From Desulfamplus magnetovallimortis (lineage in GTDB: Bacteria; Desulfobacterota; Desulfobacteria; Desulfobacterales; Desulfobacteraceae), in contig NZ_LT828560.1 in NCBI RefSeq assembly GCF_900170035.1, forward strand, positions 1 through 57,746: a stretch of DNA of 57,746 nt. Reading direction: 5' to 3'. Below, piece by piece: positions 32,004 to 46,796 of this stretch. Within the stretch, counting starts at the first letter, position 1. Every line of letters starts with the position of its first letter. Below the pieces are notes generated by a model. The model worked only from the letters and a program-made list of their open reading frames with translations, searched no databases and was not told where the DNA came from. Position numbers and translations under genes: made by a program.

Positions 32004-33101
32004 TCAATCCTTATGAATGACAGGTTTTTTGCCAAATAGTTCAAGAACCTTTTCATTCAACATTATACTGTAAGGAGGCGCTGAGGTCATACATGATTCC
32101 CCCCGAAGCACCCCCTCAACCATAACAGCCATCTGCTCTCCTGTACCTTCATAGTCAATAACAAAACTCAATGCAGCTCCAGATTTATCAAAAAAACTGT
32201 TATATCCAATAACAGGTATTTTTCGTGCAATGGACTGCTTTATAACATGGCGGATAATAGTTGGAGATGTAACTGTCTGATCAGGTATAAATAAAAGGGC
32301 ATCAACACCATAAAACCCCTGCTGGTAGAGCTCTATGATATCAGACTGCTTCTGGATGTGCATGGGAATAATTTCAATATTGCTGAACAACTGGCCTGCA
32401 ACTGCATTGTCAAACCACTGGCTGTTGTTTTCAGGGTCAAACAGAATGCCGATTTTTTTCACAAAGGGAAGTATCCGGGGAATCTCAGAAAGGGGTTTTG
32501 CAGTAAAGGGGTCAAGTGATATACCGCAAAGGGAGACGTTGTCAGGAATAATTTTTTCCGGATTGAGTACCATAGAATAGAGTATTTTAGAAGAGTTATA
32601 TGCTGCATCCACTGATTCAGGGTTATCAGGCTCTTCTGTTCCACTGGACAAAGTTGCAGAGGATATTGTTGAAGAAGATGGTTTTGCAGTCGATGGTTTT
32701 TCAGAGGAAGCACTCTTTGCCATGCCGGAAAAATTTTTCTCCACAAGATATGAAAGAGCTTCCGGACCCACCGCAACAACAACGGAATAGTTGCTGGGAT
32801 CCGTCCCCTTATAAAGAAGATCGTGGCTGAACGGGTTCTTTTCCCTGTCCAGAAAGATCCTTACAACAGAACGTTTTAGGCTGTTTTCAAAACCTTCAAC
32901 CATCTCAATAAATGGCTTTATTTCACGGGATATCAATACAGCCACAGGAAGCTCATCGCCTGACACAGTTTTTGAGTGACAAAAAACAGACAGCAAAAAG
33001 AGCAGGCATGCCAACACCCTGCCTTGTTGAAGCAGAGCTTTTTGGCCATGAAAATTTCTGCTCAATCCCCTTCTATGCTCTGTGTCACTGCCCTGTTCCA
33101 A
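32004..33101 (-). CDS. ABC_sub_bind-family periplasmic binding-like protein
   Basis: A protein of up to 365 residues resembling the ABC_sub_bind family (PF04392): ELPVAVLISREIKPFIEMVEGF at the mature N-terminus, YSVVVAVGPEALSYLVE, KIGILFDPENNSQWFDNAV, VDALLFIPDQTVTSPTIIRHV, KIPVIGYNSFFDKSGAALSFV and a YEGTGEQMAVMVEGVLRG segment near the end. The start is uncertain: the longest frame uses TTG at 33101 inside the gspD end and has a long basic leader before the signal-peptide core (VLACLLFLLSVF); a GTG just before that core is an alternative. No ABC permease or ATPase is nearby. Its neighbours are the kinase, regulator and TonB receptor, so it may bind the ligand for signalling rather than transport (inference). 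Confidence 0.75.
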   Translation of the reverse strand: MEQGSDTEHRRGLSRNFHGQKALLQQGRVLACLLFLLSVFCHSKTVSGDELPVAVLISREIKPFIEMVEGFENSLKRSVVRIFLDREKNPFSHDLLYKGTDPSNYSVVVAVGPEALSYLVEKNFSGMAKSASSEKPSTAKPSSSTISSATLSSGTEEPDNPESVDAAYNSSKILYSMVLNPEKIIPDNVSLCGISLDPFTAKPLSEIPRILPFVKKIGILFDPENNSQWFDNAVAGQLFSNIEIIPMHIQKQSDIIELYQQGFYGVDALLFIPDQTVTSPTIIRHVIKQSIARKIPVIGYNSFFDKSGAALSFVIDYEGTGEQMAVMVEGVLRGESCMTSAPPYSIMLNEKVLELFGKKPVIHKD

Positions 33102-35727
33102 TGAATTCCCTGATATCCTTTATTTTTCCTGAAAACTCCCTGGTCACCCTGTCAGCATCACTTCGGGAATCCACAACATGGGGAGTTAAAAGGAATATTA
33201 GCTCTGTTTTTGTAGTTTTGCTTTGATATGATTTAAATAAACTTCCAATAAAAGGGATATCCTTTAAAAAAGGAATACCTGAATCTCTGCTGTCGGTTGT
33301 TCTCTCCATCAAGCCACCAAGAATAATTGTCTGGCCATCACTTACAACAAGTGATGTTTCAGCCTTTCTTGTATTTATGGAGTAATTTCCTCCGGCTCCT
33401 GTTGTACTTCCTGCACTGCTCACCTCCTGGGAAAGCTCCATCTTTACAAGCCCGCTGGAGTTTATGTGAGGAGTCACCTTCAGTATTATACCAGTCTTCT
33501 GATACTGAACAGTATTGGTTACCCCGCCATTTGAATCAGTAACAGTTCCTGTAACTGTAGGGACATCTTGTCCAACCTCTATATATGCCTCTTTGTTGTC
33601 AACAGCCATGATATTGGGAGAAGAGAGGACATTTAGTTCTGAATCCTCATCAAGAGCTGTAATAAGAGCCTTTAGTGCGTCGGCAGAGCCTGCAAGAATA
33701 TCTGCGGTGCTGTATATGCCATATGTAAAATTTGAATTACTGCCAAGGGTCTGGTTAAAAGCCCTTGATGACTCACTTCCGTCCCAGCTTCCCTGTGCTT
33801 CATAATCGCCAATAGTGTTGTTCATCAACCACTGAACACCATACTCAATATTGTCGGAAAGAGTAACTTCTGCAATTACAACATTTATAAGTACTTGCCT
33901 TGGAACAACATCAAGCTCCTTGAGTACAGATTTTATAATCTTGTAGTCTCGCTGGGATGCCTTGAATACAATGGCATTGTTGGTCTCATCTGCTATGATC
34001 TCAATTTCACCGGAAATATCTCCTGAACCACTTGAGCCAGGAAGTTCAGGAAGCTCCGGAAGCTCTGGCTCCTCGTTCTGGTCTGAAGCTTTTTTTTCAT
34101 CTGGCTTATCCCTGGGAGCAGGTGCAACAGGCTTTACAATCTGTGTTTTGTTGTCAGAGGATGATTTCTTGCCCCCGTAGAGCTGCTTTAAAATCTCAGA
34201 TAGCTCTGCTGCTGTGCCATTCTCAACAAAATAGATAAAAACACCGGTTCCACCTCCTGCATCTCCGCCCATGTGATCCATTGCTGCAACCCACTTTTCA
34301 ACAAGATCAAGCATCTCAGGCCAGCGGGTGACAAGAAGAATGGCATTCATGCTGTCAATTGCAAGTATCTGATATCCCCCCCTAACAGCACCTGGTCGAT
34401 AGTAAAGACCTGAGCTTCTGATGATCTTTGTAATATCAGATACAAGATCCTTTGCTTCAGCCTCCTTTACCGGAAATATTCTCCATGCAATATCCGTGAA
34501 ATATGGAATATCCATAAGCGATATGACAGTTAGAACCTTTTCTATATTTTCACGGGTATCTGTTACAACCACACTGTTGTTAACAGTATCTGTGGAGATC
34601 TGGCTCCCCTTGGTTGTAAAGTGTCTGATATTTTTGGCAACCGCCGATGCATCAAGGTACTTAAGTTTAATAAGGCGGGAGATATCCCCTGATGCATCGG
34701 GAAGATCATCCTGGAAAAGAGGTTCTGAACTTAAAGATGCACTTTCGCTTTTCCGCACCACCTTATAGATATCCCCGGGCCCACGGGTTATTGAAAGATT
34801 GCTCAACTGCAGGATTTCATTCAATAACTCTATAAACTCAACCTTTGTGTAATCACCGGAAAAATGAAAAGTAAGCTTTGCCTTTACATGGGGATCAATG
34901 ATGTAGTTGACTTTAAAAAGCTCAAAAAGCGTTGCATCCAGTACCTCAAAAAGATCGGCATTATCAAAGGCAAGCTCCACTTTTACGGTTTCTGAGTTCT
35001 CTGTCTTGCTGACTGCATCACCAATATCAGCGGTTTTAGAGATTCTTGCACCATTTTCTGCATCATCAACACTCGCTGTTTTAGAGCTATTTTCTTCATT
35101 TACCGTTTTTATCAATGATTGATCGGAATTTTTTGTCAATGATTGGTCGGGACTCTTTGTCAACGATTGGTTGGGACTTTTTGTCAATGATTGATTGGAA
35201 CTTTCAGGTGTGACAAGTGACTCTTCATGATCTTCAGAGTCAAACAGTGATTTTTCCTGCTCTTCAGGCTTAATCAATGATTTTAATGAACTGTCATCTT
35301 TGCTGAGTGATGTATTACTCTTTGACCTGTCAATGGCCTTTGCCTTATGGGCCTTGATAAAACTTTCAAACGGGTTTGAAGGCGGTGTTTTTTTCTTGTC
35401 ACCCTCAGCAACATCAACATCATTCCCAGGGACATTTTGACTCTCTGACTCATCAACAGGAGTACCCACTTCGCTTTTATATGCTGCAAACTCTTCAACC
35501 ATACCATGGGAAACCTTGAGCTGCGGTTTTTTGTTCAGCGCCATTTTTGAGTCAGACATATGAAGGGAGCATCCGGAAAAGAGAAAGAGTGCTGCAAACA
35601 GCAATAACGTTACATGGGCACTCAACAACAGTGTTCCAGGCGCACGCGAAAAGAGTGTTCCAGAAGTACACAAAAATATATTTTTAAATCTTCTGATGTT
35701 GTAATAAATAGTTGAGTCAAAAATCAT
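33085..35727 (-). CDS. gspD: type II secretion secretin (GspD), predicted lipoprotein
   Basis: An 880-residue outer membrane secretin forming the exit pore. The start at 35727 has AGGGAGA 7 nt upstream. The signal peptide ends in a lipobox (FLFSGC), so it is probably lipidated. A low-complexity region with four 24-bp repeats (NQSLTKSP) precedes N0 (VELAFDNADLFEVLDATL), N1 (LIKLKYLDASAVAKNI), N2 and N3 (IYFVENGTAAELSEILKQL). The secretin domain has VVPRQVLINVVIAEVTL, SSPNIMAVDNKEAYIEVG, and VSDGQTIILGGLMERTTDSR near the C-terminus, followed by IPFLKDIPFIGSLF. It belongs to the gsp run but is split from gspM by a small gene pair and overlaps the next gene. Confidence 0.95.
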   Translation of the reverse strand: MIFDSTIYYNIRRFKNIFLCTSGTLFSRAPGTLLLSAHVTLLLFAALFLFSGCSLHMSDSKMALNKKPQLKVSHGMVEEFAAYKSEVGTPVDESESQNVPGNDVDVAEGDKKKTPPSNPFESFIKAHKAKAIDRSKSNTSLSKDDSSLKSLIKPEEQEKSLFDSEDHEESLVTPESSNQSLTKSPNQSLTKSPDQSLTKNSDQSLIKTVNEENSSKTASVDDAENGARISKTADIGDAVSKTENSETVKVELAFDNADLFEVLDATLFELFKVNYIIDPHVKAKLTFHFSGDYTKVEFIELLNEILQLSNLSITRGPGDIYKVVRKSESASLSSEPLFQDDLPDASGDISRLIKLKYLDASAVAKNIRHFTTKGSQISTDTVNNSVVVTDTRENIEKVLTVISLMDIPYFTDIAWRIFPVKEAEAKDLVSDITKIIRSSGLYYRPGAVRGGYQILAIDSMNAILLVTRWPEMLDLVEKWVAAMDHMGGDAGGGTGVFIYFVENGTAAELSEILKQLYGGKKSSSDNKTQIVKPVAPAPRDKPDEKKASDQNEEPELPELPELPGSSGSGDISGEIEIIADETNNAIVFKASQRDYKIIKSVLKELDVVPRQVLINVVIAEVTLSDNIEYGVQWLMNNTIGDYEAQGSWDGSESSRAFNQTLGSNSNFTYGIYSTADILAGSADALKALITALDEDSELNVLSSPNIMAVDNKEAYIEVGQDVPTVTGTVTDSNGGVTNTVQYQKTGIILKVTPHINSSGLVKMELSQEVSSAGSTTGAGGNYSINTRKAETSLVVSDGQTIILGGLMERTTDSRDSGIPFLKDIPFIGSLFKSYQSKTTKTELIFLLTPHVVDSRSDADRVTREFSGKIKDIREFIGTGQ

Positions 35728-35804
35728 AAATTTCTCCCTGAAACAGCACATACACAATTTTTACCTAAATGAAGTTCAAATCCTGCGTTAAGTAAAAAGA
35801 AAAA

Positions 35805-35867: not shown

Positions 35868-36113
35868 CTATGCTGCTTCAGCCACTATTGACTTTAACAG
35901 CTTTGTCTCTATTTCATCTGAAAACTCTACAATAAGAAAACTATCGGTCGGATAAAGATAATCTTCACCCGATTCATCAATTACACGAAGGCAACCAGCC
36001 AACAACGCCTTCTCGTCCGGAACAATACGGTATATTTTCCTGTTTTCCAGATCATTATATCCTTCACTTGTTATACAAATAGCAAATTTCAATTTATCAT
36101 TACTCCAAAACAT
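35868..36113 (-). CDS. conserved hypothetical small protein (VIDESGEDYLYP family)
   Basis: An 81-residue protein with ENRKIYRIVPDEKALLAG and RVIDESGEDYLYPTDSF, a combination seen in a widespread family of small uncharacterised proteins. It starts within the last 14 nt of the 83-residue gene upstream, so the two are coupled. Members of the two families are often adjacent, which resembles a toxin-antitoxin layout, but no functional motif supports that. The pair interrupts the gsp operon between gspM and gspD and ends at a strong hairpin. No function assigned. Confidence 0.7.
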   Translation of the reverse strand: MFWSNDKLKFAICITSEGYNDLENRKIYRIVPDEKALLAGCLRVIDESGEDYLYPTDSFLIVEFSDEIETKLLKSIVAEAA

Positions 36114-36351
36114 GCTTAATCTTCATCTTTCGACGTCCAACCCCATGAGCTTCATACCAGTGTATTTCTGCTTTATAAATTTTTCCATTTGGAAATCGAA
36201 CATGAGCAACACCTTTTAACTTTTTCCAGCGAAAATTTCCAAATTGGCTTTTTAATCTATCTCGTTCTCGTATTGATAAATTTACAGCAATAGTTTCAAT
36301 TACTGATATTTCGGATATTAATTCAAAACCTTCTATATGCTCATTGTTCAT
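36100..36351 (-). CDS. conserved hypothetical small protein (RWKKLKG...HWYEAHG family)
   Basis: An 83-residue basic protein. The C-terminal half has NFRWKKLKGVAHVRFPNGKI and IHWYEAHGVGRRKMKIKHVL, which matches a family of small uncharacterised proteins. It is the upstream member of a coupled pair with the gene at 35868-36113 (14-nt overlap). It may be a nucleic-acid-binding or toxin-like protein judging by its basic charge, but I cannot assign a function. Confidence 0.68.
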   Translation of the reverse strand: MNNEHIEGFELISEISVIETIAVNLSIRERDRLKSQFGNFRWKKLKGVAHVRFPNGKIYKAEIHWYEAHGVGRRKMKIKHVLE

Positions 36352-36491: not shown

Positions 36492-37043
36492 TCAATCTTT
36501 ATCAACAAAAAGAGTTTCAACCCTGAATGTCATGTTGAGGTTATCTTCCCTGCTTTTTCTGTAATTTATACTGACCCTTCCGATTCTGACAAGCTGCCTG
36601 AAATCCTCAAGGAACTTCAACAAAGTAGCAATACCCTTATGATCTGTCTTAACAGTAAACTCAAGAACCCCCATATCATAATCCTGCCATTTTGTACTGC
36701 GCAAAACCTGATATTTTTGCAAAGATATGTTATTTTCTCCTGTGACATTTTGAATTTTTTGCTGAACTACGGCATTAATCTCCTCAAGATTTTCACCAGA
36801 TACCATGAGTTCAGCAAAATTCTCAACCTCATTGTCCTGAATCATATTCTCAGCATGAAGCTTTTCAAGCTCACGGATCTTCTCCTTGACCTTCATCTTT
36901 TTATTAAGCTGAATGGCATATTCATCCTCTGCCTGTTCAATCTCAAGAACCACCGGATCAAATAGATATACCCACCATACAATAATAACAAGCAGTGCAA
37001 GAAGCCCCCCCATAAACCACTGGCGGTTTCTTCGGTTTTTCAT
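36492..37043 (-). CDS. gspM: type II secretion GspM/PilO-like protein
   Basis: A 183-residue bitopic inner membrane protein: a basic cytoplasmic start (MKNRRNRQ), a membrane helix at about 9-27, a coiled-coil linker (VLEIEQAEDEYAIQLNKKM) and a ferredoxin-like periplasmic domain with ISLQKYQVL and VLEFTVKTDHKGIATLLKFL. This layout matches the GspM/PilO group (T2SSM_b). The ATG overlaps the gspL stop by 4 nt. It should partner GspL in the inner membrane platform. Sequence divergence of the family limits the call to the GspM or PilO group. Confidence 0.82.
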   Translation of the reverse strand: MKNRRNRQWFMGGLLALLVIIVWWVYLFDPVVLEIEQAEDEYAIQLNKKMKVKEKIRELEKLHAENMIQDNEVENFAELMVSGENLEEINAVVQQKIQNVTGENNISLQKYQVLRSTKWQDYDMGVLEFTVKTDHKGIATLLKFLEDFRQLVRIGRVSINYRKSREDNLNMTFRVETLFVDKD

Positions 37044-38572
37044 AAAGTATCTCCTTGCTCTCTAAGTAAATTCTGTTTAAGCTCAAGACTTACTGTAAAG
37101 TGTTCATCTCCTGTATTTCTTCTGTTAACAGAACCCTTCAGCATAACATCGCTGAAAATATCAGAAGAGCGCAAAAGCTCAACAATTTTTAAGGCATCCT
37201 CCCCTCGTCCTCTCAAAATCAAGCTATTGCCATTAAATGTAAGATTTGAAAACCAAGTTCCTTCAGGTACAAGCTCTGCAATCTCATTAATGGCTGTATA
37301 AAGCGCCGGACGGCTCTGCATGAACTGTTCAACATCAGTCTTGAATTTTGATGCCTTCTTTAATGTGTCAATCTGCTCCTGCAATGGAGCAAGCTCACCT
37401 TCAAGGCGCGTTACCTGCTCTCTTGTCTCAGCAAGATTTGCCCTTGCCACTTCAAGTTTTGTATCCATTTTAACTGACACAAAATATAGTGAAACTGCAA
37501 TAATGCATATAATCGGCAAAATATAGTAAATTGGATTAAAAACCCTGATTTTAACCGGCTGGTCATCCAGAGAGATCTGCTGTACACCAAGAAAATGGTG
37601 AGCAAGTGCGGCTGATGCACGATTTAACTCAAATGGGGGAAATTTCTTGAACTTTCTGTGATTTTCAGCAGAGGCCCTGAAGGCATCTGAAGCATCAACA
37701 GGTTTAATAATGGTAACAGTTTCGGGAGAGGAGTTACTATCTTTTGATAAAACTGAAGGTGAACTAGCATCTTTGAGCAAAACAGGCGAAGAACTACTAT
37801 CTTGTGATAAAGTAGGAAAGGAACTACCTTTTGACAAAACAGGAGAAGAACTACTATCTTTTGACAAAACAGGAGAAACTTTGCCATCTTTTGATAAAAA
37901 TGGAAATCTTTGCTGAAGGGTAGAAATTACAATCTGCTTCTCTTCCTCGGAATCCCCTGACAGCGACATTGAGAATCGCATCTTTGCATCTTTCAGTACA
38001 ACAAGCTCAAAAATCGACTCCTGATCAAGGGAAAAAAGCATACCGCCGGATTCAGCACCAGGCACTCCTGCTCCAAGCACCAATGAAACACCGTAACTTA
38101 AAGGGAATATTGCCTTCAGGGATGAATCATGACCTGTTTCACTGAATATCTCTGCATATCTGTCCATCTCATCCTTAGATGCGTAGAACAGTAAAATATT
38201 GAGAGTATCGGTATCCTCTTCTGTTACAATAAGATCATAGTAAATTGCATCAGGTGAAAGGTGTGAATATATGGCAAGACTATTCTGTACAGAGAGAAGA
38301 GCATCCTCAACCGGCATTGCAGGAAGAGATATTTCCCTTGTAAAGACCCTGCTCCTTGGAATTGCAAGGTATATCACCCTTGAACTATCCTCGGGAATTT
38401 CTTTTAAAAATTCCTTGAGATGAGCGTAACCATTACCTTTGCGACGATCAAAAGCCGGAATCCCGGAAGCAGGAGATTTAAGGGAACAGCCACCAAATAT
38501 CCCGTTTGTCATGGATACATAATGCAGGGCATCCCTGTCGCAGTATATCCCCAGCAGTTTTTTCTTAAACAA
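37040..38572 (-). CDS. gspL: type II secretion GspL-like protein (PilM/PilN fusion layout)
   Basis: A protein of about 510 residues. The preferred start is TTG at 38572, with GGGG 7 nt upstream; a TTG 45 nt earlier has no ribosome site. The N-terminal actin-like cytoplasmic domain (LLGIYCDRDALHYVSM, SRVIYLAIPRSRVFTREI, YSHLSPDAIYYDL) binds GspE in known systems. A Ser/Lys-rich stretch of near repeats (SPVLSKDSS) follows. A membrane helix (YYILPIICIIAVSLYFVSV) precedes a coiled coil and a PilN-like ferredoxin domain (GTWFSNLTFNGNSLILRGRG). It overlaps gspM by 4 nt. Confidence 0.88.
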   Translation of the reverse strand: MFKKKLLGIYCDRDALHYVSMTNGIFGGCSLKSPASGIPAFDRRKGNGYAHLKEFLKEIPEDSSRVIYLAIPRSRVFTREISLPAMPVEDALLSVQNSLAIYSHLSPDAIYYDLIVTEEDTDTLNILLFYASKDEMDRYAEIFSETGHDSSLKAIFPLSYGVSLVLGAGVPGAESGGMLFSLDQESIFELVVLKDAKMRFSMSLSGDSEEEKQIVISTLQQRFPFLSKDGKVSPVLSKDSSSSPVLSKGSSFPTLSQDSSSSPVLLKDASSPSVLSKDSNSSPETVTIIKPVDASDAFRASAENHRKFKKFPPFELNRASAALAHHFLGVQQISLDDQPVKIRVFNPIYYILPIICIIAVSLYFVSVKMDTKLEVARANLAETREQVTRLEGELAPLQEQIDTLKKASKFKTDVEQFMQSRPALYTAINEIAELVPEGTWFSNLTFNGNSLILRGRGEDALKIVELLRSSDIFSDVMLKGSVNRRNTGDEHFTVSLELKQNLLREQGDTL

Positions 38573-38645
38573 ATTTTTTCCCCTGTTGATTCCTGTCTCA
38601 GTTGATTCCTTTCTCAATTGAAATTAACAGGAATATTAATTGTTC

Positions 38646-38927
38646 TCAGAGCACGAGTCTCTTTAAATCAAAAAACATTGCTCTGGTCTTTTTATTTTTA
38701 TCCTTCTCAGAGAACAAACTAAAATCATTTTTTTGATAAAATTTCAGCACCTTTGAGTCATTGTAGGCATCTACAGTTATCAACCTGCACCCGGTTCTGT
38801 TATCAAGCAGGAAGAGTTGTGTCGGCAGAAGATGCACAGGCTTTTTAAGATCATTTTCAATCCTTCTGGCGAAATCTACAGCATCCTGACCCACTAAAAC
38901 AGGGGTTGGAGTTACAGGCTGTGCCAT
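38646..38927 (-). pseudogene. GNAT acetyltransferase remnant fused to an unrelated small-protein start
   Basis: A 93-residue frame. GGAGG 11 nt before the ATG at 38927 makes it translatable. Residues 1-35 (MAQPVTPTPVLVGQDAVDFA then RRIENDLKKPV) resemble the start of small proteins often encoded before GNAT toxins. The rest (LFLLDNRTGCRLITVDAYND, VLKFYQKNDF, AMFFDLKRL) is only the C-terminal third of a GNAT fold, without the acetyl-CoA-binding loop. The simplest reading is a deletion that joined the first gene of a GNAT toxin-antitoxin pair to the tail of the second. It lies between gspK and gspL beside a fragment of the 174-bp element. Confidence 0.65.
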
Positions 38928-38951
38928 GATATTTTTCCTCCATTTCATTAT

Positions 38952-39088: not shown

Positions 39089-40108
39089 TCACCAGAAAAC
39101 CCTGCTCATATGTTCAACAATTTTATAGTTTCGTCCTTCCCTTGTGATAAAAAAGAACTCACCATACAGTCTATCATCCTCCGGAAAAAAAAGAGAGACC
39201 CTTGTGTACTGTCCTGGGTAAACAGTAAATTTATCAAAAATGGTTCCTTCATCAATATAGTCTGCATCACTGCTGATTTCCGGCAAAAGGGAAGTCTCAT
39301 CACCTGCCAAGGCTGCTGTCCTGCTTTTCAACAGAGATAAAAGAGCATAAATATCATCTGCCCCTTTCTCCGCTGATGAATATTGCCCCCAGAAAAGTCC
39401 CTCATTAAAATCCTTTAATAAAAATAGTTCTGACATGCTCTTAAATGGAGCATTGGCTGGCTCACAGGAAGGATACCTGTCATTATAATAATCTTTTTCA
39501 GCACCATTAAGACGTACAAGATCATCCGGATCAACCCAATCAAGAAGGGCATCTGCAAAGGCATCTGCATCTTGTTCGCGATCCTCACCATAGATATTTT
39601 TTAAAGCTGTTCGTATGTTATTCTCTCTATCAAGCGCTATAAATACCCTGGATGACTCTCTTTCAATTTTTACAAAACACTCTGTCTCCCCTACCATCAA
39701 TCGCATCCATGATAGAAGCTCTTTTTCTGCTCCATCAGAATTTAAGGCACTTGAATCAGAATTACCTGAAACTCCATCTGCACCGGCTCTATTGGTGCCA
39801 CTTTCTCCGGATGTTTCCCCTGACTGGCCTGCTGCATCAGTTCCTGAAGCATCAATATTCTGATTCTCTGCATTGGCTCTTGCCTTGAGCATATCATATC
39901 TGGCAGATGCAATCAGGGAGAGTATTGAAAAAGCAGCATTCTCATGCTCAAAATGTCCCATTGCATTAATAACAATCGAACCTTTTTGCCTGTTATGCGC
40001 AACATATTCGCCTGCAAGAAAGGATATGATAACAAGTATCCATAGAACAAGAATAAGAACACTGCCTCTTTCTAAACTCCTTTCTAAAAATAACTTTTCA
40101 GAAGACAC
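39089..40108 (-). CDS. gspK: type II secretion minor pseudopilin GspK
   Basis: A GspK-type pseudopilin of about 340 residues. The preferred start is GTG at 40108 (AAGGA 11 nt upstream), which gives a 15-residue leader ending SLERG, cleavage before SVLILVLWILVIISFLAGEY. A GTG 87 nt further up would add an unlikely extra hydrophobic segment. GspK lacks Glu5, as seen here. The large periplasmic domain contains the T2SSK features DREQDADAFADALLDWVDPD, NDRYPSCEPANAPF and SMSELFLLKDF, including the acidic residues used for calcium binding in the family. A Gly/Ser/Asp-rich insert lies at about 85-130. It follows gspJ. Confidence 0.9.
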   Translation of the reverse strand: MSSEKLFLERSLERGSVLILVLWILVIISFLAGEYVAHNRQKGSIVINAMGHFEHENAAFSILSLIASARYDMLKARANAENQNIDASGTDAAGQSGETSGESGTNRAGADGVSGNSDSSALNSDGAEKELLSWMRLMVGETECFVKIERESSRVFIALDRENNIRTALKNIYGEDREQDADAFADALLDWVDPDDLVRLNGAEKDYYNDRYPSCEPANAPFKSMSELFLLKDFNEGLFWGQYSSAEKGADDIYALLSLLKSRTAALAGDETSLLPEISSDADYIDEGTIFDKFTVYPGQYTRVSLFFPEDDRLYGEFFFITREGRNYKIVEHMSRVFW

Positions 40109-40226
40109 ATCTATCGCATTCCTTATTAATAAAAATGAAGAAGCACCACTTGCAAGGATGGTAAAAACATATAAAACCATTACATGGATTTCCACAAAAA
40201 AGTTTTATTATCACAGCATGAGGTCA

Positions 40227-41195
40227 TCAGAGTATTTCACCACCTGTCCTGAAAAGCCAAAAAGTATCGTTATTCAAATCCTTTTGTGTCTGGGCAAACT
40301 GAAGTTTTACAAATTCCGGAACAATCGTTGGATCATCCCATGTCTCCTGAAATGACTCCTTATCAATTTTGGCAAAGGCACTGCTTCCGGATGTATAAGA
40401 GGCATTTGAGGCTGAAGCAGAAGATGAAGCAGATGCTGACAGTGATAAACCCCTCTCTCTGCTGTCAGGAGGTGAAGTAAATAATACATTAAAACGCTCC
40501 ACATCTGTAATAACAGAAAGTGTTTCCATTTCATGATCTTTGCCGGTTCCTGATGATTTTTTTTTACTGCCTGCCGAACCTGACTTTAAAGAACCGCTTT
40601 TTGCAAGAGAATCACTTTGTTCAATATCTTCAACACTGCTGATAATATTTTCGTATATCTCCAGACGTTTCCCGTCAGGGTCATAAATATAAACTACACG
40701 CATCAAACCACCTGAAGGTGTTCCCTGCGGTGAATAGAGCGTATAAAATGAGAAGATATTATCTTTTTTGACAAATTCAAGTGACTCTTTCACCCCTCCA
40801 GAAGCTGCGGAGAGGTATCCTGAAAAAGAAAAACTTGTCACAAGAAAACGCAACTGCCGTTCCATAAGAGCCGGAAGCACAAGTTTTATCTGTGTTTTCT
40901 CTCCCTCATCCACACCTCTTTCCCATGCCTGCATGGTTATACGCAGGGAGACTGCCATGATAAGAGTAACCATTGAGACCAAAACCATGGCAACGATAAC
41001 CTCAATCAGGGTAAAGCCAGAACTCTCTCTCATCAGGCATTTACCAGAACTCTCTCTCATCAGGCGTTTACCGGAACTCTCTCTCATCAAACGTTTAGAG
41101 GAGTTATCCTGCAATGTCCGTTTACCGTAAAAAGAGATTTGACTCTCATAGCTGGAGGCGGAAATTGAAGACACCAATGGAAGTTTATTTTTCAT
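40227..41195 (-). CDS. gspJ: type II secretion minor pseudopilin GspJ with repeated leader
   Basis: A GspJ pseudopilin of about 322 residues. The start ATG at 41195 overlaps the gspI stop (ATGA), with AAGGG upstream. The prepilin signal is G|FTLIEVIVAMVLVSM, with Glu5 present. The cytoplasmic leader is unusually long (about 60 residues) and includes three 27-bp repeats encoding a (K/R)-x-LMRESSG unit, the last Gly of which is the cleavage-site residue. After the hydrophobic helix come QAWERGVDEG, SGGLMRVVYIYDPDGKRLEI and the ERFNVLF segment typical of GspJ. Ser-rich inserts are present near the end. Confidence 0.9.
   Translation of the reverse strand: MKNKLPLVSSISASSYESQISFYGKRTLQDNSSKRLMRESSGKRLMRESSGKCLMRESSGFTLIEVIVAMVLVSMVTLIMAVSLRITMQAWERGVDEGEKTQIKLVLPALMERQLRFLVTSFSFSGYLSAASGGVKESLEFVKKDNIFSFYTLYSPQGTPSGGLMRVVYIYDPDGKRLEIYENIISSVEDIEQSDSLAKSGSLKSGSAGSKKKSSGTGKDHEMETLSVITDVERFNVLFTSPPDSRERGLSLSASASSSASASNASYTSGSSAFAKIDKESFQETWDDPTIVPEFVKLQFAQTQKDLNNDTFWLFRTGGEIL
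41017..41097. repeat. three 27-bp tandem repeats in the gspJ leader
   Basis: Units 41017-41043, 41044-41070 and 41071-41097 share CCAGAACTCTCTCTCATCAG with few changes. They keep the reading frame and duplicate the RESSG segment that precedes the prepilin peptidase site. Confidence 0.9.
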
Positions 41196-41617
41196 GGTTC
41201 CCTTACCCATCTGTGGATGCAATACTCTTTTCCGGCAGACTCCTGAAGATTAACAACACATATTGTGACACTCAGCATCCCTTCCACCTCAATCTCCTCG
41301 CCATCAGTATCCTCTTCTGAACCTGTTAAAAGCATATCAGAGCTGTTTACAACAAGCGGCACAGATTCAGCACGGCATATCCAGCCAGTCTCACTTTCAA
41401 GGTTGCCTTCAAAACTTTTCTCTTCTGCAATTTCAACCATAAGCCCTGGATTATTTACAATATTTTTAAGAACACGTATTGCTTCCACAGCATGGTCTGC
41501 CCTTGCTGAAAGGGATTTTGCAGATGACAATGCCCCTGTTACAGCGGTAATTGAGATACCAATAATCACCAAAGCAACTGTTACCTCTATCAGAGTATAT
41601 GCGTTTTCATTTTGCAT
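41192..41617 (-). CDS. gspI: type II secretion minor pseudopilin GspI
   Basis: A 141-residue pseudopilin. The leader is only six residues, MQNENA, followed by YTLIEVTVALVIIGISITAV with Glu5 kept. The residue before the cleavage site is Ala, not the usual Gly. The rest fits GspI: a hydrophobic helix, ARADHAVEAIRVLKNIV, ETGWICRAE and a C-terminal strand region. It lies 9 bp after gspH and overlaps gspJ by 4 nt. GspI, J and K form the pseudopilus tip in characterised systems. Confidence 0.88.
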   Translation of the reverse strand: MQNENAYTLIEVTVALVIIGISITAVTGALSSAKSLSARADHAVEAIRVLKNIVNNPGLMVEIAEEKSFEGNLESETGWICRAESVPLVVNSSDMLLTGSEEDTDGEEIEVEGMLSVTICVVNLQESAGKEYCIHRWVREP

Positions 41618-41626
41618 TGTAATTTC

Positions 41627-42256
41627 TTAGTCAGCCTCAACCGTCCTTATGATTCCGGTGAGCATATCAACCTGAAAGGTAAACTCAAATTGATCCTCAA
41701 CAACCACCGTTACAAGGCCACCGCTTGAACTGCCGTCCGGATAGAAACATATATAATATATACCTTCATCACTTGATCTTATATTTTCGCCCTTTATCTC
41801 AACTGTTTCAGGTATTGATGCAAAATGATTATCCGACAGCATAGGAAAAGCATCATTGTCCATATCACTGCCATCTCCTCGATACTCTCTGCTTTCTTCT
41901 CCACTGTTTCCATTAGAAGCGAAATTCATACCATTACCGGAGGTTATTTCATTCATGCTAAGCACCCTGCACTCCCTATCATCCGGCAAAATGGTCATGC
42001 ATACCGGAAAAGAGCGGTTCGTGGCCTCTATGCGTGCTGTTTTACATAACTTGACAAGTTTTTCCGCAAAAAGCCGGCTCTGCTTCATCCTGCCGGAGTG
42101 TCCCACATTCATAAGAACCAGAGAAGAGGCAATGGCAAGAAGAATCATCACCACCATGATCTCAATAAGCGTAAACCCTGATTTTCCGGAATGAATTTTA
42201 AAAAGAATAGAGTTGGGAAAAAACTTTTTAAAAACAGCTCCCATAAGCATAACCAT
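41627..42256 (-). CDS. gspH: type II secretion minor pseudopilin GspH
   Basis: A 209-residue pseudopilin. A 27-residue leader ends KSG, followed by FTLIEIMVVMILLAIASSLV with Glu5. The globular part contains KLVKLCKTARIEATNRSFPV, matching the GspH segment after the helix, then ECRVLSMNE, a Ser/Gly/Asp-rich insert, and IYYICFYPDGSSSGG, the usual late GspH motif with FxPDGxSxGG. It lies between gspF (130 bp gap) and gspI. Confidence 0.9.
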   Translation of the reverse strand: MVMLMGAVFKKFFPNSILFKIHSGKSGFTLIEIMVVMILLAIASSLVLMNVGHSGRMKQSRLFAEKLVKLCKTARIEATNRSFPVCMTILPDDRECRVLSMNEITSGNGMNFASNGNSGEESREYRGDGSDMDNDAFPMLSDNHFASIPETVEIKGENIRSSDEGIYYICFYPDGSSSGGLVTVVVEDQFEFTFQVDMLTGIIRTVEAD

Positions 42257-42386: not shown

Positions 42387-43610
42387 TTAAAACTGTATCT
42401 CATTTATGCCAAATATTGTTGAGAGCATTGAGACAACAACCCCGCCGATGAGAAGCCCTAGAAACAAAATGGAGAATGGTTCAAGAAGGGCAAGATATGT
42501 CTTTATTTTGGACTGTATTTTTCGATCCAGATCTTCTGCAACTGAAACAAGCATCTCCCCTGTCTTTCCTGTCTCCTCACCAAGGGATACCATCTGAACA
42601 ACCATAGGCGGAAAAACATCACGTTCACGCATAAGAGCACTTACACTTCTTCCCTCCCTGACCTGATTGTAGATGTGTGTAACAGCCTCCTTTACCCTGC
42701 TGTTTGAGACAACAGCACGAACAATATGAAGGGCCTTCATCAATGGAACCCCGCTTTGGACAAGGGTACCAAGGGTTCTTGAGAAACGGCTCATCTCAAT
42801 ATCAAGAAGTACCTCTCCAACATAGGGAAACCTCAATATATTTTTGTCATACAGCGCACGCCCCCCAGGGGTCTTCATAAATCTCCACAAAAAAAGTGAG
42901 AATAAAATTGCAAGGGAGAGAACAAGCCACCACCATTTAGTTATAAATTGACTCAGCTCCAGCAAAACAAGCGTGGAAAAAGGAATCTCCTGGCCAAGAT
43001 CTGCAAATATACCGGCAAACTTTGGAACAACAAAGCCAAGAATCACCACAAGGGAGAGCATGCCAACTGATAAAAGTATGGCAGGATAGATGGAAGATGA
43101 AATGACATATTTCTTGATCTCTTCACTGCGCTCAATAAATTCAGACAGGCGCTCCATGACAGAAGGCAGAATCCCACCCATCTCTCCCACTCTGACCATA
43201 TTGACATAAAGATCATTAAAGTCTTCTGGCCTGTCTGCCATGGCATCAGAAAGGTTGGTCCCTTTTTTAAGTGCATTCTGCAGATATGCAGTCATGGATT
43301 TTATCTTGACATCTGCTGTTGCACTGCCGGCAATGGCAAGTGCCCTGTCAACCGGAAGCCCTGACCTGAAAAGATGGGCAAGATCAGAGGTGAGCTTAAG
43401 AAGCCTTGGGTTATTAAGTGTCTTTGGTTTGTTGGAAGGGTTGCGGAACAATGTGGAAAAGAGAGGAAGAGAAGTGTTGTCGAGCCAGCGGATAAGTGTT
43501 GAGCTTCTGGCCTGAAGTATCATCAGCACCTCGGCTTTGTCCCTTGCATCCAGGGTTTCAATGCCCTTTTTACCCTGGGCATTTATATATTCAAATCTGA
43601 ACTGCGGCAT
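42387..43610 (-). CDS. gspF: type II secretion inner membrane platform protein GspF
   Basis: A 407-residue polytopic protein with two T2SSF domains (about 72-194 and 275-397). Features include LAHLFRSGLPVDRALAIAG and MVRVGEMGGILPSVMERL in the first, and RTLGTLVQSGVPLMKALHIV and MVSLGEETGKTGEMLVSVAE in the second, with three to four membrane helices (172-195, 222-240, 375-397). The ATG overlaps the gspE stop (TGATG), so the two are coupled, as is typical. GspF connects the ATPase to the pseudopilus assembly site. Confidence 0.95.
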   Translation of the reverse strand: MPQFRFEYINAQGKKGIETLDARDKAEVLMILQARSSTLIRWLDNTSLPLFSTLFRNPSNKPKTLNNPRLLKLTSDLAHLFRSGLPVDRALAIAGSATADVKIKSMTAYLQNALKKGTNLSDAMADRPEDFNDLYVNMVRVGEMGGILPSVMERLSEFIERSEEIKKYVISSSIYPAILLSVGMLSLVVILGFVVPKFAGIFADLGQEIPFSTLVLLELSQFITKWWWLVLSLAILFSLFLWRFMKTPGGRALYDKNILRFPYVGEVLLDIEMSRFSRTLGTLVQSGVPLMKALHIVRAVVSNSRVKEAVTHIYNQVREGRSVSALMRERDVFPPMVVQMVSLGEETGKTGEMLVSVAEDLDRKIQSKIKTYLALLEPFSILFLGLLIGGVVVSMLSTIFGINEIQF

Positions 43611-45142
43611 CAGCGGGAGACCCTCAGAACCTCTTCATAGGTGGTAACACCATCTGCCACCTTTGCAAGGCCATCCATTTTCAGGGAAGCCATGCCCTTT
43701 TCCACCGCTTTTTTGAAAATCCGGTTTCTGTCGGAACCTGCCACAATTTCCCCCTGAATATCTTCATCAAGAACCATAAGTTCAAAAATACCAACCCTGC
43801 CCTTATAACCTGTCTCGCCACAGAGCTTGCAGCCATCTCCTCGAAAATAGCTGAAAGGAAGAATGTCCGCTGCAACGGAAAAGTCACTGGCAAGCCCCTG
43901 ACGCTGCTCTTCTGTAAGAGTCACCTGCCTTGAGCAGTGGCGGCAGTTTTTCCGGACAAGACGCTGGGCAAGAACACCAACAAGGGAAGATGATATCATG
44001 AAACGCTCAATCCCCATATCCTCAAGACGGGTAACAGCTCCGGCAGCATCGTTTGTATGAAGTGTAGAAAAGACCATGTGGCCTGTCAAGGCGGCCTGAA
44101 CAGCTATCTCTGCTGTCTCACCATCTCTTATCTCTCCCACCAGCATAACATCTGGATCATGGCGAAGAAACGAGCGAAGGGTGCTTGCAAAGGTCAGGCC
44201 AATGGATGAATGTACCTGAACCTGATTGACGCCATCCATTTGATACTCCACAGGATCCTCAACTGTTACAATCTTCTTGTCCGGAGTGTTGATCTCGTTA
44301 AGAGCTGCATACAAGGTTGTGGTTTTGCCGGAACCTGTAGGGCCTGTAACAAGAAGGATACCAAAGGGAGTGGAGATAACCGATCTGAACCTTTTCAGAA
44401 GAGCTCCGTTAAATCCAAGTTCTTTTAAATCAAGGGAGACATTCTCCTTGTTGAGAAGCCTTAAAACAATGCTCTCACCAAAATGCGTGGGAACAGTTGA
44501 TACACGAATATCAACCTCATCATGACCGGCACGGATTTTTATCCTGCCATCCTGGGGAAGACGGCGCTCTGCAATATCAAGTTTTGCCATGAGTTTCACA
44601 CGGGAAATAATGGCAGCTTTGAGCCTTGGAGCAATTGACTCCTGATCATGGAGAACTCCGTCAATACGGTAACGGACAAGCACATTGTGACGCCGTGGCT
44701 CTATGTGAATATCCGAAACCCCAAGCTCTAGGGCACGGTTTATCACATGGTTAACCATACGGATAACAGGCGCTTCAGATGCCATACCCTTAAGCTGCTC
44801 AGGGTCATCCCAGAGAGCATCTTCAAGTGAGAGATCAAGGGAATCTGCATCCTCTTCACCTGTCATGTCAGCATCTGCCTCATACCAGCGGTAAAGATAC
44901 TGACTTACAAGCTCGCCCGATGCCCTGAAAACATCAATGGGCCTGGAATAGGTACTCCTGATAATCTCCCTTGTATTAAAATCAAGAGGGTCTGCCATCA
45001 TAACCTGAAGCTTTTCCCCTGAATCATTAACAGGCAAAAACTGAAACCGCTTCATGAAATTTACGGATAGCAGTTGTACAGCAGGGGGATTTTCAGGAAT
45101 ATCCTTTTCATCCATTTCAGGGATAAACAGTTCTACTCCCAA
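43610..45142 (-). CDS. gspE: type II secretion ATPase GspE
   Basis: A 510-residue hexameric ATPase of the secretion system. The N-terminal N1/N2 domains contain FQFLPVNDSGEKLQVMMADP. The core has Walker A GPTGSGKTTT, an Asp box (IVTVEDPVEYQMDGVNQVQV), Walker B DVMLVGEIRD and a His box (GHMVFSTLHTNDAAGAV). A tetracysteine zinc motif is present, CRHC about 30 residues before CKLCGETGYKGRVGIFEL. The start is TTG at 45142, with AAGGA 9 nt upstream and a 10-nt overlap with gspG; the first internal ATG has no ribosome site. Confidence 0.96.
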   Translation of the reverse strand: MGVELFIPEMDEKDIPENPPAVQLLSVNFMKRFQFLPVNDSGEKLQVMMADPLDFNTREIIRSTYSRPIDVFRASGELVSQYLYRWYEADADMTGEEDADSLDLSLEDALWDDPEQLKGMASEAPVIRMVNHVINRALELGVSDIHIEPRRHNVLVRYRIDGVLHDQESIAPRLKAAIISRVKLMAKLDIAERRLPQDGRIKIRAGHDEVDIRVSTVPTHFGESIVLRLLNKENVSLDLKELGFNGALLKRFRSVISTPFGILLVTGPTGSGKTTTLYAALNEINTPDKKIVTVEDPVEYQMDGVNQVQVHSSIGLTFASTLRSFLRHDPDVMLVGEIRDGETAEIAVQAALTGHMVFSTLHTNDAAGAVTRLEDMGIERFMISSSLVGVLAQRLVRKNCRHCSRQVTLTEEQRQGLASDFSVAADILPFSYFRGDGCKLCGETGYKGRVGIFELMVLDEDIQGEIVAGSDRNRIFKKAVEKGMASLKMDGLAKVADGVTTYEEVLRVSR

Positions 45143-45603
45143 CTGACAATATCCTTGTCCATCTTGTCCTCTCCGCCCTCAACTCCATCTCCGGCATAGC
45201 TGAAAAGATCATATTTTCCATGCTCTCCCGGGGAGACATAGTGATATTCATTATCCCATGCATCCTTTGGCACAGGCTTGGGCAGATAAGGGCCATCCCA
45301 GTTTTTCAGCTCTCCTGGATTTTCACGAAGAGCTTCAAGCCCCTCATCGGTTGTTGGATAGCGGCCATTATCAAGCCTGAAGCTGTCTAAAGCTGATCCA
45401 AGAAGCTCTATCTGGGTCTTTGTGGTCTTGATTTTGGCCTGGTCAATTTTTCCGAAAAACTTCGGGGCAACAAGGGCAGACAGAAGCCCTACAATGATTA
45501 TAACCACCATGATCTCAATGAGAGTAAAGCCCTGTTGCCGTCTCTTCTCCATCAGATATTCCAGATTTCCTGAACCTGAGTTTACCTTTTCTTCTACTTC
45601 CAT
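45133..45603 (-). CDS. gspG: type II secretion major pseudopilin GspG
   Basis: The major pseudopilin, up to 156 residues. The cleavage site is RRQQG|FTLIEIMVVIIIVGLLSAL with Glu5, followed by the GspG signature APKFFGKIDQAKIKTTKTQI, FRLDNGRYPTTDEGLEAL, GPYLPKPVPKDAWDNEYHY and the calcium-site region near the C-terminus (DLFSYAGDGVEGGEDKMDKD). Two starts are possible: ATG at 45603 (AAGGA 11 nt upstream, 25-residue leader) or ATG at 45552 (8-residue leader, the usual GspG size, weak ribosome site). It is followed by overlapping gspE. Confidence 0.95.
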   Translation of the reverse strand: MEVEEKVNSGSGNLEYLMEKRRQQGFTLIEIMVVIIIVGLLSALVAPKFFGKIDQAKIKTTKTQIELLGSALDSFRLDNGRYPTTDEGLEALRENPGELKNWDGPYLPKPVPKDAWDNEYHYVSPGEHGKYDLFSYAGDGVEGGEDKMDKDIVSWE

Positions 45604-45674
45604 TTCACACTAAATCCTTATTTTCGGGGATCTTTCATTTATCAGTTTGCGCTTTGTCTGAAGCATGAAGATCA

Positions 45675-46796
45675 TCACTCAGCAGGTTTTTCTTCTTTTG
45701 CCTTTTTCTCCTGGGCCTGCTTTATCAGCTCTTCAAATTTTTTCTTCAACTCAGCAGCCTTTTCTGGATCCTGAACCGGCTTTGAACCAGGCTCAGGAGG
45801 AGAAGATGCGGAGTTGCTATCTCCTGCAGCTCTCTGCTGCTGAATCTGCTGAATCAGCTCAACAAAGCCAGCATTGCCTTTACCTCCACTGTTTCCTGAA
45901 TTGCCGCCATTATTTGCAGCTCCATCAATATTTTTTCCGGAAGATTTGCCATCATTGCCAGGAGCAGGTTTATTGGGATCAACAAGTCTTGCCATGACAT
46001 TAATCTTTATCTCCGGCTGAATTTTGCTGTCTGTCTCAATAACCATCACATCATAGTATGCTCCGGCATCCTTTTTGGTATTTTCAATGGAGATCTGATA
46101 ATTTTTTACACCATTATCTCCGGCTTTTTCGGAAAGTTCATATTTTATAAACTCTCCTCTTTGTGCCTTTATACCCTTGATGGAAAAAGAGTATTCTGGC
46201 TCAGGCACTATTGTTATTGTCTCTTTAAGAGGCTCCCCTGCATTTCCGTTGAGTCGTACAACCCTTGGAGTTATTGCTGCGAAAACTGCAACAGGGCCGC
46301 CTATCTTTAGTGATGACTGTGGTGTTACAGGGTCATCTGTCATAACAGTTATTGTTTTGCCAAGATTGCGTCCGCCATATCCTCTTGTATTTACTTTAAT
46401 TGTGATCTTTCCCTCTTCACCTGGAGGGATTTCTCTTGAATAAGAGACGGTTGTGCACCCTCAACCGGTTTTTACCTTCTGTATGTGAAGGGGCGCTGTT
46501 CCCTTGTTAATCACAACAAAGTCATGGGTTATCTCCACCCCCTCAACAACCTTTTCAAAGGTGTAACCAGAATCCGGAAAAAAGACAACAGGTGCCTGAG
46601 TCTGCTCCTTATCCACTTGATTATTTTCAGTTTCTGCCTGAGAACTATTCTTTACTGCCTTTCCTGTATCTTTTTTTACTGAAGCTTCTTTTGGCGCTTC
46701 TTCCTTTGCTTTTTCAGTCTCGGTTGCATGACCGTAAGACAGAAAAAGAAGGGATAGAGCCAGACAAAAAATAGCTGTTCTAAATAGATTTGACAT
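45675..46796 (-). CDS. DUF1573-like exported protein, probable selenoprotein (in-frame TGA = Sec112)
   Basis: A 373-codon frame with one internal TGA (46461-46463). It has a signal peptide (1-24), a Glu/Lys-rich stretch, then a DUF1573 domain: VEITHDFVVINKGTAPLHIQ, KVKTG-TGA-GCTTVSYSREI, PPGEEGKITIKVNTRGYGG and KTITVMTDDP. DUF1573 proteins have CGC at this point, so TGA replaces the first Cys and leaves a Sec-Gly-Cys redox-like motif. The frame is intact for 261 codons after it. The C-terminus is Gly/Asn/Lys low complexity and helical. It heads the gsp operon, so it may serve envelope or secretion functions. If TGA is a stop, the products are a 111-residue fragment and a silent remainder. The selenocysteine reading is inferred. 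Confidence 0.72.
46410..46447 (-). promoter_or_regulatory. candidate SECIS hairpins downstream of the in-frame TGA
   Basis: Two hairpins follow the TGA on the coding strand. The first (46432-46447) has arms TCTCTT/AAGAGA and loop ATTC, 20-23 nt after TGA, a suitable distance but without the expected G in the loop. The second (46410-46429) has arms TCCCTC/GAGGGA with loop CAGGTGAA, containing GGT but about 40 nt away. Neither fits the bacterial SECIS consensus perfectly. Confidence 0.4.

Follow-up and report, generated by a model that had tools for sequence, protein, structure and literature searches.

A tail-bearing branch of the OS_HP2 (DUF1573) selenoprotein family in a type II secretion operon of Desulfamplus, with a non-consensus SECIS region

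Gene content of the locus

The window, i.e., the whole stretch of 57,746 nucleotides analyzed here, comes from Desulfamplus magnetovallimortis and carries on its minus strand a type II secretion operon headed by a gene with an in-frame TGA codon (Table 1). Read from 46796 to 45675, this gene specifies 373 residues with a single internal TGA at codon 112 (46463–46461). An earlier note on this DNA, made from the letters alone, had described the frame as open apart from that codon, which translation bears out; the strand, unstated there, is minus. The flanks quoted around the TGA (NKGTAPLHIQKVKTG-U-GCTTVSYSREIPPGEEGK) and the count of 261 intact codons 3' of it are exact. At the gene end (45672–45677, minus strand), two consecutive in-frame TGA codons serve as the stop, while the TGA at codon 112 would be recoded.

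Downstream and in the same direction follow gspG, gspE, gspF, three pseudopilin genes, gspK, the genes for a PilN/GspL-like and a GspM-like protein, and gspD. Three small open reading frames within the operon (38646–38948, 36100–36351, and 35868–36113, minus strand) are without a Pfam match, and phmmer searches of the operon regions from 10 other genomes did not match them either.

Table 1. Features of the Sec-DUF1573 gene and the secretion operon downstream of it (positions in the window).
Feature	Position	Strand	Remarks
Sec-DUF1573 (OS_HP2) gene	45675..46796	minus	373 codons; terminal stop TGA 45675-45677
In-frame TGA, codon 112, predicted Sec of Sec-Gly-Cys motif	46461..46463	minus	TGA at same residue in 74/86 loci
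Putative signal peptide	46725..46796	minus	hydrophobic N-terminus; helix 2-19 in model
DUF1573 Ig-like domain with U112-G-C114	46296..46571	minus	profile match and model
Second Ig-like domain	45972..46280	minus	model; most blocks pLDDT 96-98
Low-confidence linker and C-terminal helix (residues 344-368)	45678..45971	minus	model
Hairpin 1, UCUCUU-AUUC-AAGAGA	46432..46447	minus	covaries in Sec relatives; absent from most Cys relatives
Hairpin 2, UCCCUC-CAGGUGAA-GAGGGA, GG in loop	46410..46429	minus	conserved in family; p 0.10 for this gene alone
GspG (T2SSG, N_methyl), next gene, 71 nt downstream of Sec gene	45133..45603	minus	Pfam
GspE ATPase	43610..45142	minus	
GspF	42387..43610	minus	
GspH-like pseudopilin	41627..42256	minus	named by gene order; Pfam N_methyl only
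GspI-like pseudopilin	41192..41617	minus	named by gene order; N_methyl only
GspJ-like pseudopilin	40227..41222	minus	named by gene order; N_methyl only
GspK	39089..40195	minus	
PilN/GspL-like protein	37040..38617	minus	
GspM-like protein	36492..37043	minus	Pfam match under curated cut-off
GspD secretin	33085..35757	minus	

The gene belongs to a known selenoprotein family

The product matches Pfam DUF1573 (PF07610) over residues 76–167 with 70.2 bits (cut-off 26.1), in agreement with its earlier description as DUF1573-like, and NCBIfam NF041425, "OS_HP2 family (seleno)protein", over residues 74–169 with 139.3 bits (curated cut-off 100). It combines the features of an OS_HP2 member: a score above the cut-off, a UGC (UxC) motif in the DUF1573 domain, and Sec machinery in its genome. 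DUF1573/OS_HP2 is tabulated as a selenoprotein family with the motif UxC/UGC (PMC2398784, PMC9312934, PMC13188914), for which the reviews PMC9312934 and PMC13188914 give Zhang & Gladyshev 2007 as the source. The NF041425 match and these published tables rule out a new family; the "probable new selenoprotein" of the earlier note stands as to Sec-Gly-Cys for Cys-Gly-Cys and falls as to novelty, and the type II secretion operon went unmentioned there.

Within the order, 343 of the 389 genomes sampled gave a match to NF041425, 320 of them above the cut-off; among the matches listed, 12 rows are without a stop and all others carry exactly one TGA, the TGA-bearing ones numbering more than 100. A second sample of the same order, which overlaps with the first and is not independent of it, gave matches in 135 of 147 genomes at E ≤ 1e-20. 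For comparison at the level of DNA, 80 stretches were retrieved, of which 79 contained the domain; 7 loci that also contain it were added later, for a set of 86. At the residue corresponding to codon 112, which the earlier note had proposed to survey in homologues, 74 loci (the window's gene included) have TGA and 12 have a Cys codon; 12/86 is no unbiased rate, since four of the seven added loci were picked for having Cys, and for a few of the first 79 the absence of a stop was likewise known beforehand. The TGA indeed takes the place of the first Cys of the DUF1573 CGC motif, the second Cys being kept. Further stop-free OS_HP2 matches occur in genomes of the same genus (G154:C77:11989-12279 and G192:C73:4482-4772), and the window's genome (G000) contains weak stop-free DUF1573 matches in very long frames (C6:283807-284115 and C19:118551-118850; 1789 and 3258 aa).

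The canonical copy of the order adjoins priA and a HAD hydrolase gene, not secretion genes: among the first 79 loci, the HAD hydrolase lies just downstream in 48 and PriA upstream in 38 (assigned with Pfam from one example each). Three copies occur in the window's genome, i.e., the canonical TGA-containing copy on C13 (237 aa, with the HAD hydrolase gene next downstream), a Cys copy on C10 beside a molybdopterin oxidoreductase gene, and the window's copy. The last shares with the family the DUF1573 domain with U-G-C and the TGA conserved across the order; its branch differs from canonical OS_HP2 in having a long linker plus a helix at the C-terminus and in its place at the head of a type II secretion operon. 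We found no description of this operon-linked, tail-bearing branch with its non-consensus SECIS region in the openly licensed PMC papers searched, though one may exist.

Two conserved RNA hairpins follow the TGA

Two hairpins had been noticed after the TGA, neither a textbook SECIS; this holds, and both are conserved RNA structures in the family. Counting the T of the TGA as column 0, hairpin 1 pairs columns 15–19 with 26–30, and hairpin 2 pairs columns 34–39 with 48–53. Cells of hairpin 1 are paired in 90% of cases in Sec loci and 40% in Cys loci, falling to at most 52% (Sec) when the partners are slid by 1–3 columns. The corresponding values for hairpin 2 are 88% and 67%; because its slid versions reach up to 73%, hairpin 2 is less sharply defined by pairing. 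Hairpin 1 is formed (5/5 pairs, or at least 5/6 in a register shifted by one) in 64/74 Sec loci and 1/12 Cys loci, and in the seven Desulfamplus operon copies it has the one-column shift and a four-base loop. The canonical TGA-bearing copy at L043:8813-9523, followed by a HAD hydrolase gene, is among the 10 of 74 Sec loci without a fully formed hairpin 1.

Hairpin 1 shows the conserved pairing with compensatory changes that serves as a criterion for bacterial SECIS elements (bSECIS). Columns 16 and 29 form U-A in 42, C-G in 22, and U-G in 9 of the 74 Sec loci, with a single non-pair (Fisher p = 8e-12, uncorrected for relatedness). Column 16 is the second base of a Val/Ala codon and column 29 a third base, of an Arg or Lys codon in 69/74 loci; the coupling joins an amino-acid choice to a mostly synonymous base 13 nt away, so selection on the protein is no explanation for it. 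On the best tree of the 74 Sec rows, the pair type changes 10 times (9–11 on bootstrap trees), with only 2 changes forced by well-supported branches.

Stability was compared with that of codon-synonymous recodings. Hairpin 1 was more stable (p ≤ 0.05) in 62/74 Sec loci and 1/12 Cys loci, and hairpin 2 in 56/74 and 1/12, respectively; the hairpin 1 window was set after the pairing table had been viewed, which makes the Cys loci the fair control. In the two Cys members L044 and L048, hairpin 1 was not significant (p = 0.14 and p = 1.00). An earlier version of the test, which set the hairpin window somewhat differently and covered fewer loci (L063 was left out), gave 55/70 Sec loci and 1/8 Cys loci, with p = 0.07 for hairpin 1 of the window's gene. 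For this gene alone, folding of the nucleotides after the TGA, as the earlier note had suggested, gave a divided outcome: hairpin 1 surpassed its recodings (p ≤ 0.05), hairpin 2 did not (p = 0.10), and the 54 nt from the TGA were unremarkable by dinucleotide shuffling (z = −1.27, 20/200 shuffles as good).

The published model of the bSECIS places a G in the first two loop positions and the loop 16–37 nt after the UGA, and elements outside the model are taken there to point to distinct bacterial SECIS classes (PMC13188914). Like the consensus, the family has a stem-loop just 3' of the UGA, and the loop of hairpin 1 starts at 17 nt (common register) or 19 nt (the window's gene), within that range; the loop of hairpin 2, starting after 37 nt, is at its edge. 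Unlike the consensus, the loop of hairpin 1 has the G at its first two positions in only 14/74 Sec loci (it is absent there from 60/74, including the window's gene), the GG of hairpin 2 is at positions 3–4 of an 8-nt loop, one position late, and a second conserved hairpin follows the first. No SECIS match was obtained from Rfam for the 6 loci searched. A lower stem that pairs the UGA itself with columns 36–39 was rejected, since its outer pairs fail uncompensated in about one quarter of the Sec loci and it is incompatible with hairpin 2. In the mechanism we propose, the two conserved tandem hairpins, which lie within 54 nt from the start of the UGA, would together direct translation past it, presumably by binding SelB, and hairpin 1 would shorten the path to the GG loop of hairpin 2.

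The TGA is predicted to encode selenocysteine

The earlier note had named selA, selB, selC, and selD as genes to look for. All four are present above curated cut-offs in the genome of the window (6.68 Mb, 97.3% complete): tRNA-Sec (selC) at 76.6 bits, selB at 361.5 bits, selA at 595.6 bits, and selD, which has one in-frame TGA of its own, at 370.4 bits. Codon comparisons indicate that the part after the TGA is under purifying selection. Among seven Desulfamplus orthologues (152–154 codons after the TGA), dN/dS 3' of the TGA was 0.09–0.31 in 20/21 pairs (one not computable), synonymous sites being near saturation in most pairs, with L047/L051 a clean exception (dN/dS 0.11). In 17 of the 18 pairs with both values, dN/dS was lower after the TGA than before it.

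The TGA at codon 112 is almost certainly read as selenocysteine, given the Sec machinery, the TGA-bearing relatives, the hairpins kept in Sec relatives, and the purifying selection 3' of the TGA. That it is a true stop, leaving a pseudogene or two separate products, is very improbable. The standard code does allow such a reading, with a first frame that stops at 46461 (111 aa) and a separate ATG frame of 222 aa (46343–45675), but it is at odds with a TGA in the same place across the order, with covarying hairpins that are frequent in Sec and rare in Cys relatives, with the selection on the downstream part, and with a genome that holds the full Sec machinery. A pseudogene or sequencing error was rejected in view of the TGA across relatives, the hairpin covariation, the synonymous-recoding test, and the dN/dS values. 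We conclude that this is a real selenoprotein gene of a known family; the papers searched gave no description of the operon-linked, tail-bearing branch, whose non-consensus SECIS region is well supported.

The gene stands at the head of type II secretion operons in Desulfamplus

The orthologous GspF (E ≤ 1e-95) was found in 20 of the 389 genomes of the order; it occurs in 8 of the 10 Desulfamplus genomes searched and was not found in the other two, which are 69% and 72% complete. The Sec gene stands first in all seven Desulfamplus operons with DNA upstream of gspG (L046, L047, L049-L052, and L144); L145, whose sequence ends before gspG, was left out of this count. The other six operon copies are 50–55% identical to the window's protein. 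All 14 cases outside Desulfamplus were examined. In 12 of them (L146-L148, L162-L164, and L166-L171) the G-E-F order was the same and gspG was preceded by 2.9 kb or more of sequence, the remainder being L165, which ends before gspG, and L172, with another gene order. A phmmer search with the window's domain detected DUF1573 upstream of gspG in none of these 12 operons. The link was also considered as a trait of the whole family and rejected: type II secretion genes lie near 6/79 loci of the first set, all six from Desulfamplus, the window included. The Sec gene is not a constant member of type II secretion operons and is an accessory of one genus at most.

In the phylogenetic tree, two Cys copies group with the seven operon copies in a single clade (support 100/99, bootstrap unsettled) and lie inside it. 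Most simply, as judged from the tree, Sec would have been lost in these two Cys copies, whose exact positions within the Desulfamplus clade are uncertain. The two (L044:9288-10229 and L048:8617-9567) are tail-bearing Cys members located outside the operon; L044 has a molybdopterin oxidoreductase gene and one for a large FAD/Fe-S protein as neighbors, and those of L048 look similar.

Predicted structure and chemistry of the Sec-Gly-Cys site

An AlphaFold2 model (mean pLDDT 82, pTM 0.59), computed with C read for U, contains two confident beta domains, U112-G-C114 lying between strands 103–110 and 115–119, followed by a tail with a low-confidence linker and two helices. The Desulfamplus clade has such a tail in common, and a few members outside it (L056, L072, and L100) have longer ones. 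Foldseek matched the model to tandem Ig/ASH-like domains of ciliary proteins, CEP192, adhesion proteins, and Porphyromonas 2qsv, with low whole-chain TM-scores; a PDB profile search returned nothing significant (best E 0.046, for 2qsv, among 9 matches). An alignment of 45 members shows no variation at C112, G113, or C114, and H91 is the only other invariant possible ligand. The product is probably exported, an OS_HP2/DUF1573 selenoprotein built from two Ig-like domains, the first of which carries Sec-Gly-Cys between two of its strands.

The periplasmic redox role proposed in the earlier note is reasonable. A CGC tripeptide is reported to have a potential of −167 mV, near that of PDI (PMC4316792), and for CsgC, an Ig-fold CxC protein with a potential of −139 mV, action on the curli pore CsgG has been proposed (PMC3173608). 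CsgC resembles the window's protein in its Ig-like fold and CxC-type motif, a working likeness only, and in being an accessory of a secretion apparatus, as we propose here; it differs in having Cys instead of Sec, and its redox role is itself a proposal. It was absent from the best 50 Foldseek matches listed for the window's protein and from the 9 PDB profile matches. Later work on CsgC stresses amyloid inhibition. The proposed job of setting the thiol/disulfide state of exported proteins is that of DsbA/DsbC, which have a thioredoxin fold and CxxC, in contrast to the Ig-like predicted fold and CxC-type UGC found here; the window's protein is not a thioredoxin-fold CxxC enzyme of the Dsb system. 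By analogy with CGC-type motifs, which do so with sulfur, Sec112 and Cys114 would alternate between selenol/thiol and selenenylsulfide; such cycling, with exchange with periplasmic protein thiols, is probable.

Genus-specific pseudopilin cysteines and the Dsb pathway

When Cys columns of the secretion proteins were compared, three pseudopilins had cysteines specific to the genus. GspH has Cys86 (41999–42001) and Cys170 (41747–41749) in 8/8 Desulfamplus rows and 0/14 outgroup rows, GspI has Cys81 (41375–41377) in 6/6 and 0/13, and GspK has Cys244 (39464–39466) in 5/5 (the window and four others, one fragment row being dropped) and 0/13; row numbers fall where contigs end. The GspK cysteine is less clean, a Cys being present two columns off in three distant outgroup GspK proteins. 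Among columns with at least three Cys, none in GspE, F, G, J, L, M, and D had Cys in all Desulfamplus rows while lacking it in the three sister rows. Searches for DsbA, DsbB, and VKOR gave no match in the window's genome, of which 2.7% may be missing; on 14 control genomes, the DsbB, VKOR, and DsbA searches gave matches in 6, 3, and 8, respectively. The type II pseudopilin PulK is a reported client of DsbA (PMC5792426).

Proposed role and alternative explanations

In our best explanation, the type II secretion operon of Desulfamplus acquired a paralogue with a tail as its leading gene, and the Sec protein made from it would tune the thiol/disulfide state of the secretion machine, for which the extra cysteines of the minor pseudopilins are the obvious candidate substrates. 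The explanation as a whole, i.e., Sec at position 112, redox cycling, tuning of secretion thiols, and tandem hairpins, we hold at a probability of roughly 0.75; taken by itself, the tuning of secretion thiols by the Desulfamplus paralogue, with pseudopilin cysteines as substrates, is a tentative proposal. The CGC potential, CsgC, and the PulK/DsbA pair are the precedents for an Ig-fold protein with Sec-Gly-Cys that would work in the periplasm on thiols of the secretion machine encoded alongside it, and with modest confidence we regard CsgC-like work on pseudopilus thiols as the most likely mechanism for this branch. The Sec part of the account is strong; the secretion role we infer from one lineage, within which the operon link and the cysteine gains count as one coincidence, not many, making them a lead and not proof.

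The chief competitor, which has a substantial chance though short of even, is that the link arose by chance: in an ancestor of Desulfamplus, a second copy of the canonical gene would have been inserted ahead of gspG and kept there with no part in secretion. Its confinement to one lineage and the two Cys members of the clade that lie elsewhere, L044 beside molybdopterin oxidoreductase and FAD/Fe-S protein genes, fit such an accident, whereas conservation of the position in 7/7 Desulfamplus operons despite 50–55% identity to the window's protein, and the coincident Cys gains in three pseudopilins, do not. Should the UGC site instead bind a metal or metalloid (Cu, Hg) and not exchange thiols, its place before gspG would reflect co-expression only. 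Mercuric transport and metal-binding selenoproteins stand in the same published tables (PMC9312934, PMC13188914), and two soft ligands in an invariant C112-G113-C114 could hold a soft metal; but H91 is the sole further candidate ligand, CGC and CxC pairs are known redox couples (PMC4316792, PMC3173608), and the genus-specific pseudopilin cysteines would be left without explanation, which makes metal binding unlikely.

It is improbable that Sec is inserted into a structural protein, an Ig-like scaffold of the pseudopilus or secretin docked by its C-terminal helix, with Sec and Cys in one permanent link. The Foldseek matches to tandem Ig/ASH-like domains of structural ciliary and adhesion proteins and the tail helix common to the Desulfamplus clade speak for this. 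Against it, Sec is costly and usually retained at catalytic positions, and the Cys forms in the family imply that a static link would need no Sec. At the other extreme, the Sec Ig-fold protein might be a dedicated disulfide catalyst of the pseudopilus, with new cysteines in GspH, GspI, and GspK to match, in a Desulfamplus without detectable DsbA, DsbB, or VKOR, and with a tandem-hairpin SECIS in which hairpin 1 brings the GG loop of hairpin 2 to SelB; we consider this a long shot.

On the preferred reading of a Sec protein that tunes secretion thiols, a selenoprotein family of DUF or hypothetical status gains a functional lead, namely a place in a known machine and candidate substrates, and the Cys paralogues in the same genome offer natural controls for the Sec protein. 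If this reading holds, a bacterium that has no classical Dsb pathway would possess a disulfide route based on selenium. The double hairpin, which covaries across an order and lies outside the published consensus, provides a test case for distinct bacterial SECIS classes. In selD, the in-frame TGA (L132, about 1531–1533) precedes a stem capped by a GGGAU loop, a structure that comes near the published consensus.
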